From positions 1 through 57,932 of the forward strand of contig JAFZSI010000022.1 of NCBI GenBank assembly GCA_017619445.1: a stretch of 57,932 nt of DNA. The letters run 5' to 3'. The stretch's first letter is position 1. Every line of letters begins with the position of its first letter. Below the pieces are notes generated by a model that worked only from the letters and a program-made list of their open reading frames with translations, was not told where the DNA came from and searched no databases. The stretch is from Prevotella sp. (GTDB taxonomy: Bacteria > Bacteroidota > Bacteroidia > Bacteroidales > Bacteroidaceae). The position numbers and the translations under genes were made by a program. Of this stretch, positions 9,411 to 57,932 are shown one piece after another.

Positions 9411-9688
9411 AACGAAGCATATAGATACGAATCCAAAGCATACATATCTGAACAGCAAGCGGTCAATTGTCGTCACAATACATTTTTGTGCACATATTGT
9501 GCACACTTTTCTCGATTTTAACATTTCCCATTTTTCTCACACAGAGATATAGAGGTTAAGGAGTCGTCTTTGTCATTTATGTCTAATTATCTACTATCAA
9601 TTATTTAAACTCTTTGTCTCTCTGTCAAAAACTCTCTCTGTCGAAGAAAAAAGTGGCGCTGATTGCACCAACTTTCAGAAACTTTTCT

Positions 9689-9696
9689 TATCTTTG
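9689..9696 (+). promoter_or_regulatory. -7 box of the DUF285 surface protein gene
   Basis: TATCTTTG matches TAnnTTTG and is identical to the box at 56207-56214 in the other copy. Transcription from about 9701 gives a leader of about 405 nt. Confidence 0.75.
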
Positions 9697-9759
9697 CCCC
9701 AAGAATCATTCATACACAACATATATAAACCATTAAACATATTGCCCATGACATAAATT

Positions 9760-9985
9760 TCTGACCAAGACATATAGAAATTGAAGCGTCCGCTTGAATC
9801 TTGTTTCCGAAAATCTGCAAATTAATGGAACAACCAAGAGTAAAGGCAAGGATGCTCACGCCCGAAGGCGTGGGCTTTTACTCGTTAATGGTTGTTAGGT
9901 GTTTGCAGATACCTCGGAAACGTAGACGAAGTAATCAGTCCACGTTTTCTTTTTCTGTCTTTTTTCGCGCGACCTTTGGACTGAA
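9760..9985 (+). ncRNA. Candidate structured cis-regulatory RNA, copy A
   Basis: Within the leader, five helices stack into one long hairpin: P1 9803-9810/9914-9921, P2 9813-9821/9902-9910, P3 9829-9836/9889-9896, P4 9838-9844/9877-9883, P5 9854-9862/9867-9875. A small hairpin (AAGCG with CGCTT, near 9783-9795) precedes it and a sixth helix (CAGTCCA 9936-9942 with TGGACTG 9977-9983) follows. Copy B at 56282-56509 preserves all helices with different sequences in P1, P2 and P3, while internal loop AGGTG and the segment GTAATCAGTCCACGTTTTC are invariant. I do not recognise the motif as a named riboswitch; the ligand or partner is unknown. Confidence 0.65.
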
Positions 9986-9988
9986 TTC

Positions 9989-10075
9989 ATGGTACGCAGG
10001 TGTCTCACCTGCGGTTGCCGCAGGCTTTCATCAGCAGGTGTTGCGATTGCCGCGGGTGAGACACCCACGTACCAT
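9989..10075 (+). promoter_or_regulatory. Start-proximal hairpin with competing folds, copy A
   Basis: ATGGTACG...AGGTGTCTCACC pairs at long range with GGGTGAGACACC...CGTACCAT, ending 32 nt before the ATG at 10108. The 5' arm can instead fold locally (CGCAGGTG with CACCTGCG). The two folds exclude each other. The same module lies at 56517-56571 in copy B. Confidence 0.55.
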
Positions 10076-10107
10076 TACACTAATCAAAACTTAAAACACA
10101 AATAATC

Positions 10108-12066
10108 ATGAAAAAACAAGTATTATTATTTCTGATGACGCTGCTGTCGTTTACAGCACTCGCACAATCCGAGCCCTACGCCGTGCTGAGCGATGATGGC
10201 CAGACCGTTACGTTTTATTACGATGACCAAAAGACGAGGCGTGGAGGAATTGACATTCTGGACAATTACCCTTATGGTAATCCCACTACTGCAGTCTTCG
10301 ATGCCTCTTTTGCCAACTATAGGCCTGAAAGTACCGCTTTTTGGTTTATGCATTGCTCCTCGCTTACTACAATCAAAAACATTTGGAACCTCAATACGTC
10401 TGAGGTGACAGATATGCGTTACATGTTCTATGGTTGTTATGGTTTGACAAGCCTTGACGTGAGCGGTTTCGATACGTCCAACGTGAAGGATATGAGTTAT
10501 ATGTTTTATGATTGTTTTGGTTTGACGAGCCTTGATATGAGCGGCCTCAATACGTCCAGCGTGATGTATATGCAATATATGTTCTGGTGTTGTTCTGGTT
10601 TGACGAGTCTTGACGTGAGCGGTTTCGATACATCCAACGTGACAGATATGCGTTACATTTTCTATGGTTGTTCTGGTTTGACAAGCCTTGATGTGGGTGG
10701 CTTCGATACGTCCAATGTAACAGATATGTGCCAGATGTTCGGTGGTTGTTCTGGTTTGACAAGCCTTGACTTAAGCGACTTCAATACGTCCAACGTAACG
10801 AGAATGGATTGGATGTTCGCTGGTTGTACTGGTTTGACAAGTCTTGATGTGAGCGGCTTCAATACGTCAAACGTGACGAGGATGGATTGGATGTTCAGTG
10901 ATTGTTCTGGTTTGACGAGCCTTGACTTGAGCAGCTTCAACACGTCCAATGTTATAGCAATGGATTGGATGTTCGCCTATTGTTCTTGTCTGTTGAGTCT
11001 TGACTTGAGCGGTTTCAATACGTCAAATGTGACGAGTATGGGGGTAGTATTTGCTAATTGTTCCAGTCTGACGAGCCTTGACTTGGGCGGCTTCGATACG
11101 TCCAACGTGACGTATATGTCTTCTATGTTCTATGGTTGTTCCAGTCTGACGAGCCTTGACTTGGGCGGCTTCGATACGTCCAACGTAAAGGCAATGGATT
11201 GGTTGTTCGGTAATTGTTCTGGTTTGACTTCCATCTATACTGATGAGGCAAAATGGAGTACAGAAAGTGTAACCGAAAGTGATGGTATGTTCAGTAGCTG
11301 TTTATCTCTCGTCGGTGGCAACGGAACGTTGTATGACGAGAATCACATTGATGCTGAGTACGCCCGCATCGACAAGCCCGGGCAGCCAGGATACTTTACG
11401 GCTAAACAACCGGAAATGGAACCCGTTGAACAGGGCGAGACCATTAACATCGGCGACGAGATTGACGAGAACACCAACCTTGACGGCAACGTGGTGGATA
11501 ATGTGTATTTCAACATCAACGACGGCAGCTATGATGCTACGGGAGGCTGCATCGTGGTGAACTCACCCACGGACGACTCGTTTATCAACGGCCAGGACAT
11601 CTTTGGCGACGACTTCAAGGAAGGCTACAACGGCATCGTGTTTATGGTTCCCGCGGGTGAGGGCACGATAAACGTGGAGGCCGAGACGACTGGCGACATG
11701 GTGCTGAAGGTGAAGATTGGCAACAAAAAGCCCATCACAATGGTGCTGAACGGCAAGCTGACCATCTCGTTCCCGTATGATGTGACGGAAGATACATACG
11801 TTTATATCTATGGCGGCACAAGCTCGGCCGGTGCCAAGGGCATGAAGAAGGCCAGCGGCAGCGGTTCGCTGAAGATCTACGGCATCGAGGTTGTAGGCGG
11901 AGAGAACGGCATTGAGGCAATTGATAATGGACAATTGACAATTGATAATTCGCCAGTGTATAACCTGAACGGTCAGCGGGTTATTTCCTCTCCTTCGGGG
12001 AGGCCAGGAGGGGTTCCTACGAAGGGCGTGTTCATCAGGAACGGCAAGAAAGTGCTGGTGAAGTAA
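10108..12066 (+). CDS. Secreted BspA-like surface protein with DUF285 repeats
   Basis: A 652-residue exported protein: signal peptide MKKQVLLFLMTLLSFTALAQ; about eleven 26-residue DUF285/BspA-type leucine-rich repeats (about residues 85-395) of the form SGLTSLDVSGFDTSNVTDM plus an aromatic/Cys end; a C-terminal beta-rich domain (about 440-600); and the tail YNLNGQRV...GVFIRNGKKVLVK shared with two CotH proteins in this window. Such repeats occur in adhesins such as BspA; ligand unknown. The 78-bp DNA repeats are close to identical, so copy number can change by recombination. The linker before the tail (11919-12015) is made of simple intergenic-type repeats. Expression is probably governed by the structured leader. 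The tail may be a secretion/anchoring signal (inference). Confidence 0.88.
   Translation: MKKQVLLFLMTLLSFTALAQSEPYAVLSDDGQTVTFYYDDQKTRRGGIDILDNYPYGNPTTAVFDASFANYRPESTAFWFMHCSSLTTIKNIWNLNTSEVTDMRYMFYGCYGLTSLDVSGFDTSNVKDMSYMFYDCFGLTSLDMSGLNTSSVMYMQYMFWCCSGLTSLDVSGFDTSNVTDMRYIFYGCSGLTSLDVGGFDTSNVTDMCQMFGGCSGLTSLDLSDFNTSNVTRMDWMFAGCTGLTSLDVSGFNTSNVTRMDWMFSDCSGLTSLDLSSFNTSNVIAMDWMFAYCSCLLSLDLSGFNTSNVTSMGVVFANCSSLTSLDLGGFDTSNVTYMSSMFYGCSSLTSLDLGGFDTSNVKAMDWLFGNCSGLTSIYTDEAKWSTESVTESDGMFSSCLSLVGGNGTLYDENHIDAEYARIDKPGQPGYFTAKQPEMEPVEQGETINIGDEIDENTNLDGNVVDNVYFNINDGSYDATGGCIVVNSPTDDSFINGQDIFGDDFKEGYNGIVFMVPAGEGTINVEAETTGDMVLKVKIGNKKPITMVLNGKLTISFPYDVTEDTYVYIYGGTSSAGAKGMKKASGSGSLKIYGIEVVGGENGIEAIDNGQLTIDNSPVYNLNGQRVISSPSGRPGGVPTKGVFIRNGKKVLVK
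10363..11240 (+). repeat. Tandem 78-bp coding repeats
   Basis: Units start at 10441, 10519, 10597 and every 78 bp to about 11221, each beginning GGTTTGACRAGCCTTGA or its variant AGTCTGACGAGCC. They encode the 26-residue DUF285 repeats; the first and last units are more diverged. Confidence 0.85.
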
Positions 12067-29419: not shown

Positions 29420-29600
29420 GGGGTTTGAGGGGTGAGAGTTGAGAATTGAGAATTGAGAGTTGAGAATTGAGAATTGAGAATTGAGAATTTCTAATAGTCT
29501 AATTGTCTAATTGTCTAATTGTCAAAAAACATCTCTATGTCTCTCTGTCGAAACATCTCTATGTCTCTCTGTCGAAACATCTCTCTGTCTAAAAAAAGAA
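29420..29600. repeat. Simple tandem repeats between brkB-family gene and rnpB
   Basis: Seven-base GAGAATT units alternate with GAGAGTT (29427-29490), then CTAATTGT units (29492-29522), then a 30-bp repeat ACATCTCTATGTCTCTCTGTCG in two full and one partial copy (29529-29589). The 62-residue frame over it (29511-29699) is a repeat artefact. Confidence 0.75.
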
Positions 29601-29601
29601 A

Positions 29602-30010
29602 GCAGTGTTCCTGTAAGCCGGGTTCTGTTCTCCGTGAGCCTCTCGGCCACGCGGAGCGCCTGCCATTTATCTAATCCGCAAGTCACCCTGCGGCTTTAGC
29701 ATTCTACCCTCCGCCGCGGTCTCCCCCGACATATCCCGAAGGAAGATGTGGGCGAGAGCCGTTGAGCGGGCAACTCTCTCTGACGGCGGTTTACATGAAC
29801 TTGCAGCCTCCAGATGGCACAGCACGACGATCACCCGTCGCCTGGTGGTCTCTTACACCACCTTCTCACCCTTACCCTTGCGGGCGGTTGTTTTCTTCTG
29901 CCAGATCCTACTGTCGCCAATAGCTTCTATTTTCGGAAGTGGAGCACCCTGTGCTGCCCGGACTTTCCTCTCGTGCCCTCAAGGCACCAGCGGCAGCGCC
30001 GGAACACTGC
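29602..30010 (-). ncRNA. rnpB: RNase P RNA (class A)
   Basis: On the minus strand the RNA begins GCAGTGTTCC and ends GGAACACTGC, which pair as P1. Near the 5' end is the conserved GAGGAAAGTCCGGGC followed by AGCACAGGGTGCTCC (P2-P3 side of the catalytic core). Near the 3' end is ACAGAACCCGGCTTAC, the universal CRV/P4 strand. The length is about 409 nt, fitting type A RNase P RNA, which cleaves tRNA 5' leaders. A -7 box is directly upstream. Frames drawn over this region (such as 29746-30120) are spurious. Confidence 0.96.
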
Positions 30011-56206: not shown

Positions 56207-56214
56207 TATCTTTG
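56207..56214 (+). promoter_or_regulatory. -7 box of the LRR surface protein gene
   Basis: TATCTTTG, the counterpart of 9689-9696. It predicts a leader of about 383 nt to the ATG at 56603. Confidence 0.75.
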
Positions 56215-56281
56215 CAGCACAGAATCGTTATCAATCCATATAATAACCATTTAAAAACAATTTGCCCATGATATAACACAT

Positions 56282-56509
56282 TACTTAGACATATAGAAAT
56301 GGAAGCGTTAGCTTTATTCTTGTTCTTTTCGAAATCGCCAAATTGAAAAAGGAGCTACAGGAGTAGAAGTTAATGCTCACGTCGGTTCGGCGTGGGCTTT
56401 TACTCGTTTAGGTAGCTCAGGTGTTTGGCGATACCAGAAAAGAACGTAGGCGAAGTAATCAGTCCACGTTTTCTTTTTCTGTCTTCTTTCGCGCGACTTT
56501 TGGACTGGC
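56282..56509 (+). ncRNA. Candidate structured cis-regulatory RNA, copy B
   Basis: Helices: P1 56322-56330/56437-56445, P2 56334-56342/56424-56432, P3 56352-56358/56412-56418, P4 56361-56368/56398-56405, P5 56375-56384/56388-56397 (or closed one pair lower), P6 56460-56466/56501-56507. P1 is GTTCTTTTC/GAAAAGAAC against GTTTCCGA/TCGGAAAC in copy A. P2 is ATCGCCAAA/TTTGGCGAT against ATCTGCAAA/TTTGCAGAT. P3 is GAGCTAC/GTAGCTC against AACAACCA/TGGTTGTT. Pairing is kept while sequence changes, the mark of a selected RNA fold. Confidence 0.65.
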
Positions 56510-56516
56510 TTAATTC

Positions 56517-56571
56517 ATGGTACGCAGGTGTCTCACCTGCGGCAATCGCGGGTGAGACACCCACATACCAT
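56517..56571 (+). promoter_or_regulatory. Start-proximal hairpin with competing folds, copy B
   Basis: AGGTGTCTCACC pairs with GGGTGAGACACC, extended by ATGGTA/TACCAT, ending 31 nt before the ATG. The local alternative CGCAGGTG/CACCTGCG uses the same 5' arm. Confidence 0.55.
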
Positions 56572-56602: not shown

Positions 56603-57932
56603 ATGAAAAAACAAAACCTATCAACTACTGCGAAAAGCATCAGACGAATGCTGCTCGCCTGTGCGCTCATGCTGCTGCCAACGATGGCCGGCGCGCAATG
56701 TCCCGACAATAACCACCCCCACATGATTGACCTCGGCCTGCCTTCAGGCACCAAGTGGGCCTGCTGCAACGTGGGAGCCTCGAAGCCCGAGGGCTACGGC
56801 GGCTATTACGCCTGGGGAGAGACAGAGGAAAAAGACTACTACGATTGGAGCACCTACATCCACTGCGATGGAACAGAAGGCACTTGCCATGACATCGGCA
56901 CCGACATCGCTGGCACACAGTACGACGCTGCCACGGCCAACTGGGGAAGCCCTTGGGTGATGCCGAGTATTGACCAGATATTTGAGCTTTATGACAACTG
57001 CACCTGTGAGTGGACCAACGAGAATGGCGTGAACGGCTGTAGGTTCACCTCATCCAATGGTTCCTCTATCTTTATTCCCGCCGCAGGCTGCCGCCAGATA
57101 GATTTGTTGTTTGATACCGGCGAAATGGGCTACTATTGGTCTTCATCGCTCTACGAAAACTCCATGATAGATGCCTACGGAATGGGCTTCGAAATCAACT
57201 CGCAGGGCTATATCTTCCCCTGGCGCTACCTCGGTCACTCTGTCCGCCCCGTTGCCGTATCATCTACTTCTGGCATTATCATTGACAAGAACACCTTCCC
57301 CGACGACAATTTCCGCAACTGGGTGCTGGGACAGGACTACGGCCAGGACGGAGTGCTGACGGATGAGGAGATTGCAGGGGTAATCAGAATAGTTGTTAAT
57401 AATATGGGCATTGCTGATTTGAAAGGCATTGAGTATTTCACGGCATTGACACGGCTTTATTGCGAAAGCAACCAGTTGACCTCGCTAGACATGTCGAAGA
57501 ATACAGCATTGAAGTCACTTTATTGCAAATTCAACCAGCTGACCTCGCTTGACGTGTCGAAAAACACGGATTTGAAAGAACTTTGGTGCAACGGCAACCA
57601 ACTGGCCTCTCTTGACGTGTCAAAGAACACGGCATTGACGGAACTTTATTGTGAAAACAACCAGCTGACCTCGCTTGACGTGTCAAAGAACACGGCATTG
57701 TCGCAGTTTAATTGTTTCTTCAACCAACTGACCACGCTCGACATTTCAAAAAACGCGGCATTGACGAGGCTTGGTTGCAGCAACAACCAGTTGACCTCGC
57801 TCGACGTGTCGAAGAACACGGCATTGACATATCTTAATTGCGGCTGGAACCAGCTGACCTCGCTCGACGTTTCAAAGAACACGGCATTGACGCAGCTTGA
57901 TTGCTACAATAACCAGATTAAAGGAACTGCTA
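56603..57932 (+). CDS. Secreted leucine-rich-repeat surface protein (3' end outside window)
   Basis: 443 residues are visible and the frame is still open. A signal peptide with a long basic N-region (about 1-32, ending MLLPTMAGAQ) is followed by a domain of about 170 residues with MIDLGLPSGTKWACCNVGAS and GGYYAWGETE, resembling the FISUMP/major-paralogous domain of Bacteroidetes and Fibrobacteres secreted proteins. Next is a short segment (IIIDKNTFPDDNFRNWVLGQ), then 21-residue LRRs from about residue 283 of the form LTSLDVSKNTALTELYCENNQ. It is probably an adhesin-like surface protein. The leader is shared with the 10108-12066 gene although the repeat types differ, suggesting co-regulation. 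Confidence 0.87.
   Translation, partial: MKKQNLSTTAKSIRRMLLACALMLLPTMAGAQCPDNNHPHMIDLGLPSGTKWACCNVGASKPEGYGGYYAWGETEEKDYYDWSTYIHCDGTEGTCHDIGTDIAGTQYDAATANWGSPWVMPSIDQIFELYDNCTCEWTNENGVNGCRFTSSNGSSIFIPAAGCRQIDLLFDTGEMGYYWSSSLYENSMIDAYGMGFEINSQGYIFPWRYLGHSVRPVAVSSTSGIIIDKNTFPDDNFRNWVLGQDYGQDGVLTDEEIAGVIRIVVNNMGIADLKGIEYFTALTRLYCESNQLTSLDMSKNTALKSLYCKFNQLTSLDVSKNTDLKELWCNGNQLASLDVSKNTALTELYCENNQLTSLDVSKNTALSQFNCFFNQLTTLDISKNAALTRLGCSNNQLTSLDVSKNTALTYLNCGWNQLTSLDVSKNTALTQLDCYNNQIKGTA
57448..57932 (+). repeat. Tandem 63-bp coding repeats
   Basis: Units with the core ACCTCGCTTGACGTGTC encode the 21-residue LRRs. At least seven units are visible before the window ends, with high DNA identity. Confidence 0.85.

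Follow-up and report, generated by a model that had tools for sequence, protein, structure and literature searches.

Two genes for putative surface proteins in a Prevotella sp. genome are preceded by similar leaders, which raises the question whether these leaders act as structured RNA, and in which way. The window, i.e. the whole stretch of DNA analysed (57,932 nucleotides), is contig JAFZSI010000022.1 of GenBank assembly GCA_017619445.1, one complete contig out of the 81 that make up a 2.87 Mb genome. A first-pass annotation of the window had proposed a covarying five-helix hairpin in both leaders, selected as RNA and without a known name. According to our analysis this hairpin belongs to a larger element, which we consider probably to be a cis-acting transcription attenuator and to represent a so far unnamed class of structured leader RNAs of Bacteroidota. 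The candidate terminator, the anti-terminator, pseudoknots, the promoter, a mini open reading frame (mini-ORF) and the phylum-wide span are additions to the earlier description.

The long hairpin and its covariation

Both leaders can be aligned across promoter, leader and start codon, and the five helices P1-P5 lie in each copy where the annotation had placed them. In copy 1 (9803-9921, plus strand, as are all features of both copies given below) P1 joins 9803-9810 to 9914-9921, P2 9813-9821 to 9902-9910, P3 9829-9835 to 9890-9896, P4 9838-9844 to 9877-9883 and P5 9854-9862 to 9867-9875; the hairpin of copy 2 occupies 56322-56445. P2 differs by exactly two compensatory changes (ATCTGCAAA/TTTGCAGAT vs ATCGCCAAA/TTTGGCGAT), the bases of P1 and P3 are replaced with complementarity kept, and the segments AGGTG (9897-9901, 56419-56423) and ATACC (9909-9913, 56431-56435) are identical in both copies, all as previously described. 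The proposed boundaries of 9803-9921 are too narrow, since the conserved unit reaches from a 5' hairpin, H0 (from 9783), to the end of a U-tract (9954). Beyond this unit, copy 1 has a mini-ORF upstream (9748-9756) and an extra alternative helix that extends to 9984.

Compared with dinucleotide shuffles, the long hairpin folds with z values of -7.2 (copy 1) and -9.0 (copy 2), none of 200 shuffles being as good. Selection on RNA structure, as suggested from the two copies, is borne out by compensatory changes in many homologues. A MAFFT alignment of 39 copies has 92.1% of its pair cells paired (84.1% when shuffled) and 161 cells with double changes (48.6 when shuffled). In an alignment of 100 rows, the 15 column pairs with the strongest covariation are all located within P1, P2 or P3; this set comprises 100 of 146 loci, with chance blast matches, duplicates and the loci L031, L136, L138, L143 and L146 omitted. 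A mostly distant alignment of 101 rows, 8 from the own family of the genome and the remainder order- or phylum-level, shows changes on both sides in 48 of 49 pairs and a covariation of 0.621 (0.184 shuffled), with slid structures about 40% paired, counts that are biased toward structure by the fitting of the rows to the covariance model. At one pair of P5, 78 of the 100 distinct rows of this alignment have U-G; because this would be A-C on the opposite strand, the mRNA-sense strand is the structured one.

Among the unpaired positions, AA and ACC, located between P1 and P2, are invariant, and so is GGU, located between P3 and P2. A GGU-ACC pairing around P2' was considered as well and is common, with U facing A in 185 of 295 rows according to a simple pattern in three overlapping alignments. 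It is expected to clash sterically with P2, and both segments are treated as conserved loops.

Promoter, putative terminator and alternative pairings

The 3' end of the conserved unit is formed by a helix, P6, and a U-tract directly after it, together a putative intrinsic terminator. In copy 1 (9920-9954) P6 consists of ACGTAGAC (9920-9927) and GTCCACGT (9938-9945), with the U-tract at 9945-9954; in copy 2 (56444-56478) the strands are found at 56444-56451 and 56462-56469, with the U-tract at 56469-56478. The central pairs of P6 covary among the 39 copies (GAC/GTC with AGC/GCT), and at least six U within 9 nucleotides (nt) are present in 176 of 182 distinct copies, compared with 14 of 364 background stretches. 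Both copies possess the -7 box TATCTTTG (9689-9696, 56207-56214) of the Bacteroidota TAnnTTTG promoter type. Such boxes occur 21-130 nt upstream of 155 of 256 distinct elements (14.3 after shuffling), but only 5 are found in the 256 intervals between terminator and first ATG (0.37 per kb vs 6.32 upstream), so that the gene, by this promoter type, is reached through the terminator. An apparent intrinsic terminator between promoter and gene is the arrangement expected of a transcription-attenuating leader RNA, and we infer that P6 and its U-tract act as such.

The strands of P4 and P6 possess further potential partners. In copy 1 the P4 3' strand with the following loop (TTACTCGT, 9878-9885) is complementary to the P6 5' half with its loop (ACGAAGTAA, 9926-9934) and forms a candidate anti-terminator, the equivalent strands of copy 2 being located at 56400-56407 and 56450-56458 (GCGAAGTAA). 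The linker between H0 and P1 carries the 5' strand of a pseudoknot pairing, PK2, that competes with P4 (9797-9803 in copy 1; ATTCTTG, 56316-56322, in copy 2). Its TCTTG (9799-9803) is complementary to CAAGA (9835-9839) on the 5' side of P4, and the partner in copy 2 is CAGGAGTA from 56358. In 100 rows of the distant alignment (one of 101, the opposite-strand row of L280, was dropped), cognate anti-terminator duplexes have a mean of -5.26 kcal/mol and swapped ones -3.21 (z -12.8), cognate PK2 duplexes -5.47 and swapped ones -3.29 (z -14.1), and 18 control segment pairs of the same rows range from z -3.3 to +1.8; because the rows are related while the swap tests count them as independent, these z values should not be read as probabilities. 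For the nearer 100-row set the anti-terminator means are -6.33 (cognate), -5.72 (swapped) and -3.81 (shuffled). Base-exchanged variants include ACUCUU/AAGAGU for the anti-terminator (L129) and UCUCG/CGAGA, UCCUG/CAGGA and UGGUG/CACCA for PK2. The RNA can form either P4 with P6 or PK2 with the anti-terminator, but not both sets at once, which is the layout of a transcription attenuator; judging from these sequences, the second set appears to be kept by selection, as is expected of an attenuating leader RNA.

H0 (AAGC/GCTT, 9783-9795, in copy 1; 56302-56314 in copy 2) is supported by covariation and is absent from the minimum-energy folds of both copies. Its loop takes part in a second pseudoknot pairing, PK1, with a bulge of the long hairpin: GCGTCC (9786-9791) with GGATGC (9850-9855) in copy 1, GCGTTA (56305-56310) with TAATGC (56371-56376) in copy 2. 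Among homologues GUCC/GGAU is replaced by GUUA/URAU; PK1 is paired in 91.2% of cells vs 81.5% shuffled (100 copies), or 81.2% vs 73.2% for 24 distinct combinations, with z -9.5. The P6 3' strand has an alternative partner in P7, where TCAGTCCA (9935-9942) may pair with TGGACTGA (9977-9984) in copy 1, a span of 9935-9984, and TCAGTCCA (56459-56466) with TGGACTGG (56501-56508) in copy 2, a span of 56459-56508. P7 helices scoring at least 17 are present in 34 of 100 copies, compared with 12.2 by swapping and 2 by reversal (z -5.8 and -6.6). Energy folding additionally suggested that the 5' strand of H0 pairs with the U-tract (P0), as it does in the minimum-energy folds of the window copies; P0 is only weakly favoured (z -4.0 and -2.9) and not claimed here.

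The start-stop mini-ORF

Upstream of H0 the two copies contain the mini-ORFs ATG ACA TAA (9748-9756) and ATG ATA TAA (56268-56276). A motif GCN(N)ATG, 25-47 nt before H0, occurs in 75 of the 99 copies with enough upstream sequence, and in 74 of these 75 a stop is reached in frame after 0-2 sense codons. In the remaining two frames of the motif copies, stops occur within four codons in 12 and 24 cases, and they do so for 22 of 79 other upstream ATGs taken as control. A second set comprises 82 new distinct elements, 20 of 102 rows having been dropped as identical to earlier ones or shorter than 150 nt; here the motif was detected in 66 of 81, with the stop in frame in 66 of 66, vs 5 and 10 within three codons in the other frames. 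The two sets contain 31 and 27 different mini-ORFs using all three stop codons. Under a permissive rule that accepts AUA and requires an in-frame stop, 151 of 180 copies, mostly of the own family, possess the mini-ORF, 6 of them with an AUA start, and the median distance from its start to the element (34-35 nt) is constant across ORF lengths. In order-level rows it is found, by position alone, in 30 of 66, compared with 6 of 66 for a control window; the core is phylum-wide, whereas the mini-ORF appears to have been added to it in a particular lineage.

We rejected a role of this ORF in sensing amino acids, as the sense codons are variable or absent (0-2). For the same reason the element does not resemble a leader-peptide attenuator: the ORF is conserved but has no fixed codons, hence no codon-specific sensing. 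Outside the order, the loci L265, L269, L272, L273, L275 and L277 show by eye a GCCTATG-like start about 80-150 nt after the terminator, not upstream, with an early stop in several cases.

Distribution and Rfam status

A blast search with one leader recovered 10 full-length leaders (query included) and one shortened copy from the own genome, and the covariance model R1 added two diverged copies, C21 (E 1.8e-8) and C48 (E 8e-6). The own-genome leaders are 79-88% identical over 220-240 nt. Searching related genomes with a covariance model, as the annotation had proposed, retrieved many homologues with compensatory changes. Of 299 genomes from the same genus, 199 contain an R1 match. In the family sample this holds for 161 of 251 genomes, from 22 of 30 genera; at E 1e-4 the order sample yields 81 of 247 (63 of 174 genera), and at E 1e-3 the phylum sample yields 23 of 247 (10 of 122 genera). 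The own genome is counted at all four ranks, and the wider-rank samples also contain nearer genomes. With 9-11 candidates scored per genome, copy numbers are lower bounds, and the E-values are rough. An exact core pattern was found, among the matches listed, in Paraprevotella clara, Prevotella disiens, Hoylesella buccalis and assemblies of Muribaculaceae and Alistipes, and had no match in a viral contig collection. The model is specific: at E 1e-5 it gave 102 matches in 718 kb of loci, all inside the 100 targeted loci (100 of at least 117 from the exact-pattern scan), two of which have a second match.

The presumed lack of an Rfam family holds, as no tested copy reaches an Rfam cut-off. At the gathering cut-off of Rfam 15 the window gives only a bacterial class A RNase P RNA elsewhere (29598-30010, minus strand), and 15 loci give one tRNA elsewhere; permissive scans of window positions 9650-10110 and of 19 order-level and 14 phylum-level loci gave chance-level matches only. 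Sub-threshold matches on the hairpin are HCV_J7880 (E 3) and Pseudomon-1 (E 9.5); those elsewhere are mir-8510 (E 0.007) on a palindrome downstream and AaHKsRNA41 about 1.1 kb from the element. The literature listings searched and the available portions of PMC2864571, PMC8040213, PMC11697453, PMC10994844, PMC9723704 and PMC7366714 name no such element, a 2017 paper on 224 candidate RNAs lying outside this scope, and in those of PMC11109978 and PMC8632094 the taxon names have no match.

Downstream genes

Copy 1 precedes a gene for a protein of 652 amino acids (aa; 10108-12066) with a signal-peptide-like start, DUF285 and BspA-type leucine-rich repeats. The gene downstream of copy 2 begins with the ATG at 56603 and is open at the contig end (56603-57931, 443 aa seen); its product has a signal-peptide-like start and leucine-rich repeats (LRR_4). 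Downstream ORFs of the homologues are mechanical choices. A same-strand ORF was chosen in 97 of 100 loci, at a median of 63 nt after the element, and with both strands considered, 159 of 167 elements share the strand of their nearest ORF, 3 have it on the opposite strand and 5 have none. According to a simple, home-made signal-peptide rule (ORF minimum 60 aa downstream, 150 aa background), export is predicted for 82 of 92 and for 63 of 75 downstream proteins, compared with 100 of 289 other ORFs from the same loci. The placement before genes of secreted or surface proteins is hereby supported (63/75 vs 100/289), whereas a common signal controlling surface display, also suggested earlier, is not, as some of the downstream genes look cytoplasmic.

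Scans with Pfam and NCBIfam models, in which 91 of 100 downstream ORFs were kept, detected BspA-type leucine-rich repeats in 25 of the 91 proteins; other matches are to dockerin, DUF285, Ig-like, beta-barrel, BACON and type IX secretion system (T9SS) tail models. Outside the order, the three genes scanned (L264, L268 and L269) encode TonB-dependent receptors with plug and carboxypeptidase-regulatory-like domains, that of L264 matching SusC/RagA models. At L130, L310 and L314 copies stand directly before small DNA-binding-like proteins, not exported ones; the protein of L130 has a match to HTH_3 with E 0.0012, which falls short of the Pfam cut-off.

Two further features touch the leaders of the own genome. 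The shortened leader L011 (G000:C38:9006-9066, minus strand) breaks off immediately behind the P2 5' strand and continues into another open coding region, where a deletion apparently took the rest of the leader and the N-terminus of a gene. Between terminator and start codon of the window copies lies a palindromic repeat similar to repetitive extragenic palindromes (ATGGTACGCAGGTGTCTCACC..., 9989-10075 and 56517-56571), with 15 matches at 13 places in the genome (E 1e-6, both window copies included), of which 6 are full-length and positioned after these leaders. It is regarded as separate from the element, being missing from the leaders L004, L005 and L008 and occurring elsewhere in the genome.

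Regulatory model and rival explanations

In the proposed attenuator a Bacteroidota-type promoter, as its sequence indicates, would start the transcript upstream of the element, and the RNA would choose between two exclusive pairings, both evident from covariation. In the OFF state P1-P5 would form with P4 closed, and P6 with its U-tract would terminate transcription before the start codon. In the ON state the H0-P1 linker would capture the P4 5' strand (PK2), assisted by PK1, and the freed P4 3' strand would pair with the P6 5' half as anti-terminator; after read-through, P7 near the start codon would hold the other P6 half in the copies that possess it, and the downstream gene, usually for an exported or surface protein, would be transcribed. 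Which state is adopted may depend on a ligand acting in trans, either a small molecule or a protein, that would bind the internal loops on the two sides of P2 (AA/ACC and U-rich/GGU). Its place is suggested because these loops are constant across the phylum while P2 is freely replaced, and given an attenuator we regard such a ligand as slightly favoured. In the own family, a ribosome on the start-stop mini-ORF about 35 nt upstream would probably be an added input.

Several observations weigh against this attenuator. The minimum-energy folds of both whole window elements lack H0 and P6, and their 5' end is paired with the region of the U-tract; because P6 is missing as well as H0, our confidence is slightly lowered. 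P6 alone is weak in the window copies (-5.5 and -4.9 kcal/mol). Its columns are paired in only about 71% of cells of the distant alignment, where alignment error is possible. Many anti-terminators of the Prevotella type are short (-4 kcal/mol), and the relatedness of the swapped sequences, mentioned above, concerns all pairings tested in this way. P7-like helices scoring at least 15 are present in 46 of 100 copies vs 28.6 by swapping and 15 by reversal, so that many copies have no P7. Of 180 copies, 29 have no mini-ORF, and outside the order it shows no enrichment (4 of 27 rows vs 2 of 27 for the control window). A minority of the downstream genes are regulators or look cytoplasmic.

Other readings place the decision elsewhere. 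An RNA-binding or NusG-like antitermination factor may bind the conserved loops and coordinate the genes of exported proteins; the large set of unrelated exported proteins downstream and the conserved loops that enclose a replaceable helix on either side are consistent with it, yet processive factors need no terminator/anti-terminator pair, and this pair is conserved. We see such a protein-responsive leader as possible, though doubtful. Somewhat less credit is given to a sensor of translation capacity, in which initiation or termination of a ribosome on the mini-ORF would set the fold without a small-molecule ligand, successful initiation biasing the balance of PK2 and P4 and hence termination. 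It would account for a mini-ORF in 151 of 180 copies whose start keeps its spacing whatever the ORF length, and for varied ORFs (31 and 27) with stops in frame in 74/75 and 66/66. However, the switch is retained where the mini-ORF is scarce (30/66 in the order, 4/27 outside), and, with the usual footprint, a ribosome on it would end about 18 nt before H0.

A promoter and a terminator-like end delimit a discrete RNA in many copies, and multi-copy small RNA families exist in Bacteroides, as the available text on FopS describes (PMC11697453), so that the terminated RNA of about 200 nt might itself be a trans-acting small RNA and the gene incidental. This is improbable in view of the scarcity of promoter boxes in the stretch from terminator to gene (5 boxes in 256 such intervals), the close spacing to the gene, the bias to exported genes, and an anti-terminator that is sensible only in cis. 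A DNA mobile element or recombination site with inverted repeats complementary by chance, the explanation that the first-pass annotation had set against its own, appears very improbable: the identity of the own-genome leaders (79-88% over 220-240 nt) and the fusion of the shortened L011 to another coding region would fit, but compensatory change extends across families, viral contigs lack the exact pattern, and both the G-U pairs of the sense RNA (U-G in P5 in 78/100) and the orientation with the nearest ORF (159/167) speak against it. An attenuator acting in cis remains our preferred reading.

Comparison with known systems and significance

The element shares with FopS, a small RNA family of Bacteroides, its multi-copy occurrence in Bacteroidota with promoter and terminator. 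According to the available text, FopS is trans-acting, has a sigma-ABfr promoter and consists of a single-stranded 5' stretch and a hairpin, and its authors report its deposition in Rfam (PMC11697453); the present element is a long multi-helix structure with no Rfam match and is not assigned to FopS. Transcription-terminating riboswitches are similar to the element in that they lie 5' of a gene, possess a conserved structured domain whose internal loops do not vary, and have a terminator that overlaps the anti-terminator. Unlike them, the element has no Rfam match, precedes mostly exported proteins of unrelated families and appears to use a P4 strand inside the long hairpin for its switch. Riboswitch classes for cyclic di-GMP likewise occur in many copies per genome before diverse surface-protein genes, but the element matches none at the Rfam cut-off or in the permissive scans. 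The tetQ gene of Bacteroides CTnDOT is reportedly controlled by a tetracycline-responsive translation attenuator with a three-codon leader peptide. By this description it is similar in that, within the same phylum, a very short ORF precedes a leader that switches; it differs from the proposed element in acting on translation.

Bacteroidota are dominant gut bacteria whose choice of surface and secreted proteins is poorly understood. A bolder version of the attenuator, which we put forward tentatively and hold to be rather unlikely as a whole, is a riboswitch class new to science and as old as the phylum, in which one common signal gates much of the exported proteome and which in the Prevotella-containing family is wired to translation via the start-stop ORF, so that ribosome loading and ligand would be read by one RNA. 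If the attenuator is real, one RNA device in several copies per genome would control diverse surface and secreted genes phylum-wide, and its ligand or partner would become a direct experimental question. The conserved start-stop ORFs of 0-2 codons would represent an unusual translation input to transcription, and the terminator/anti-terminator leader would be a ready part for the engineering of gut commensals.
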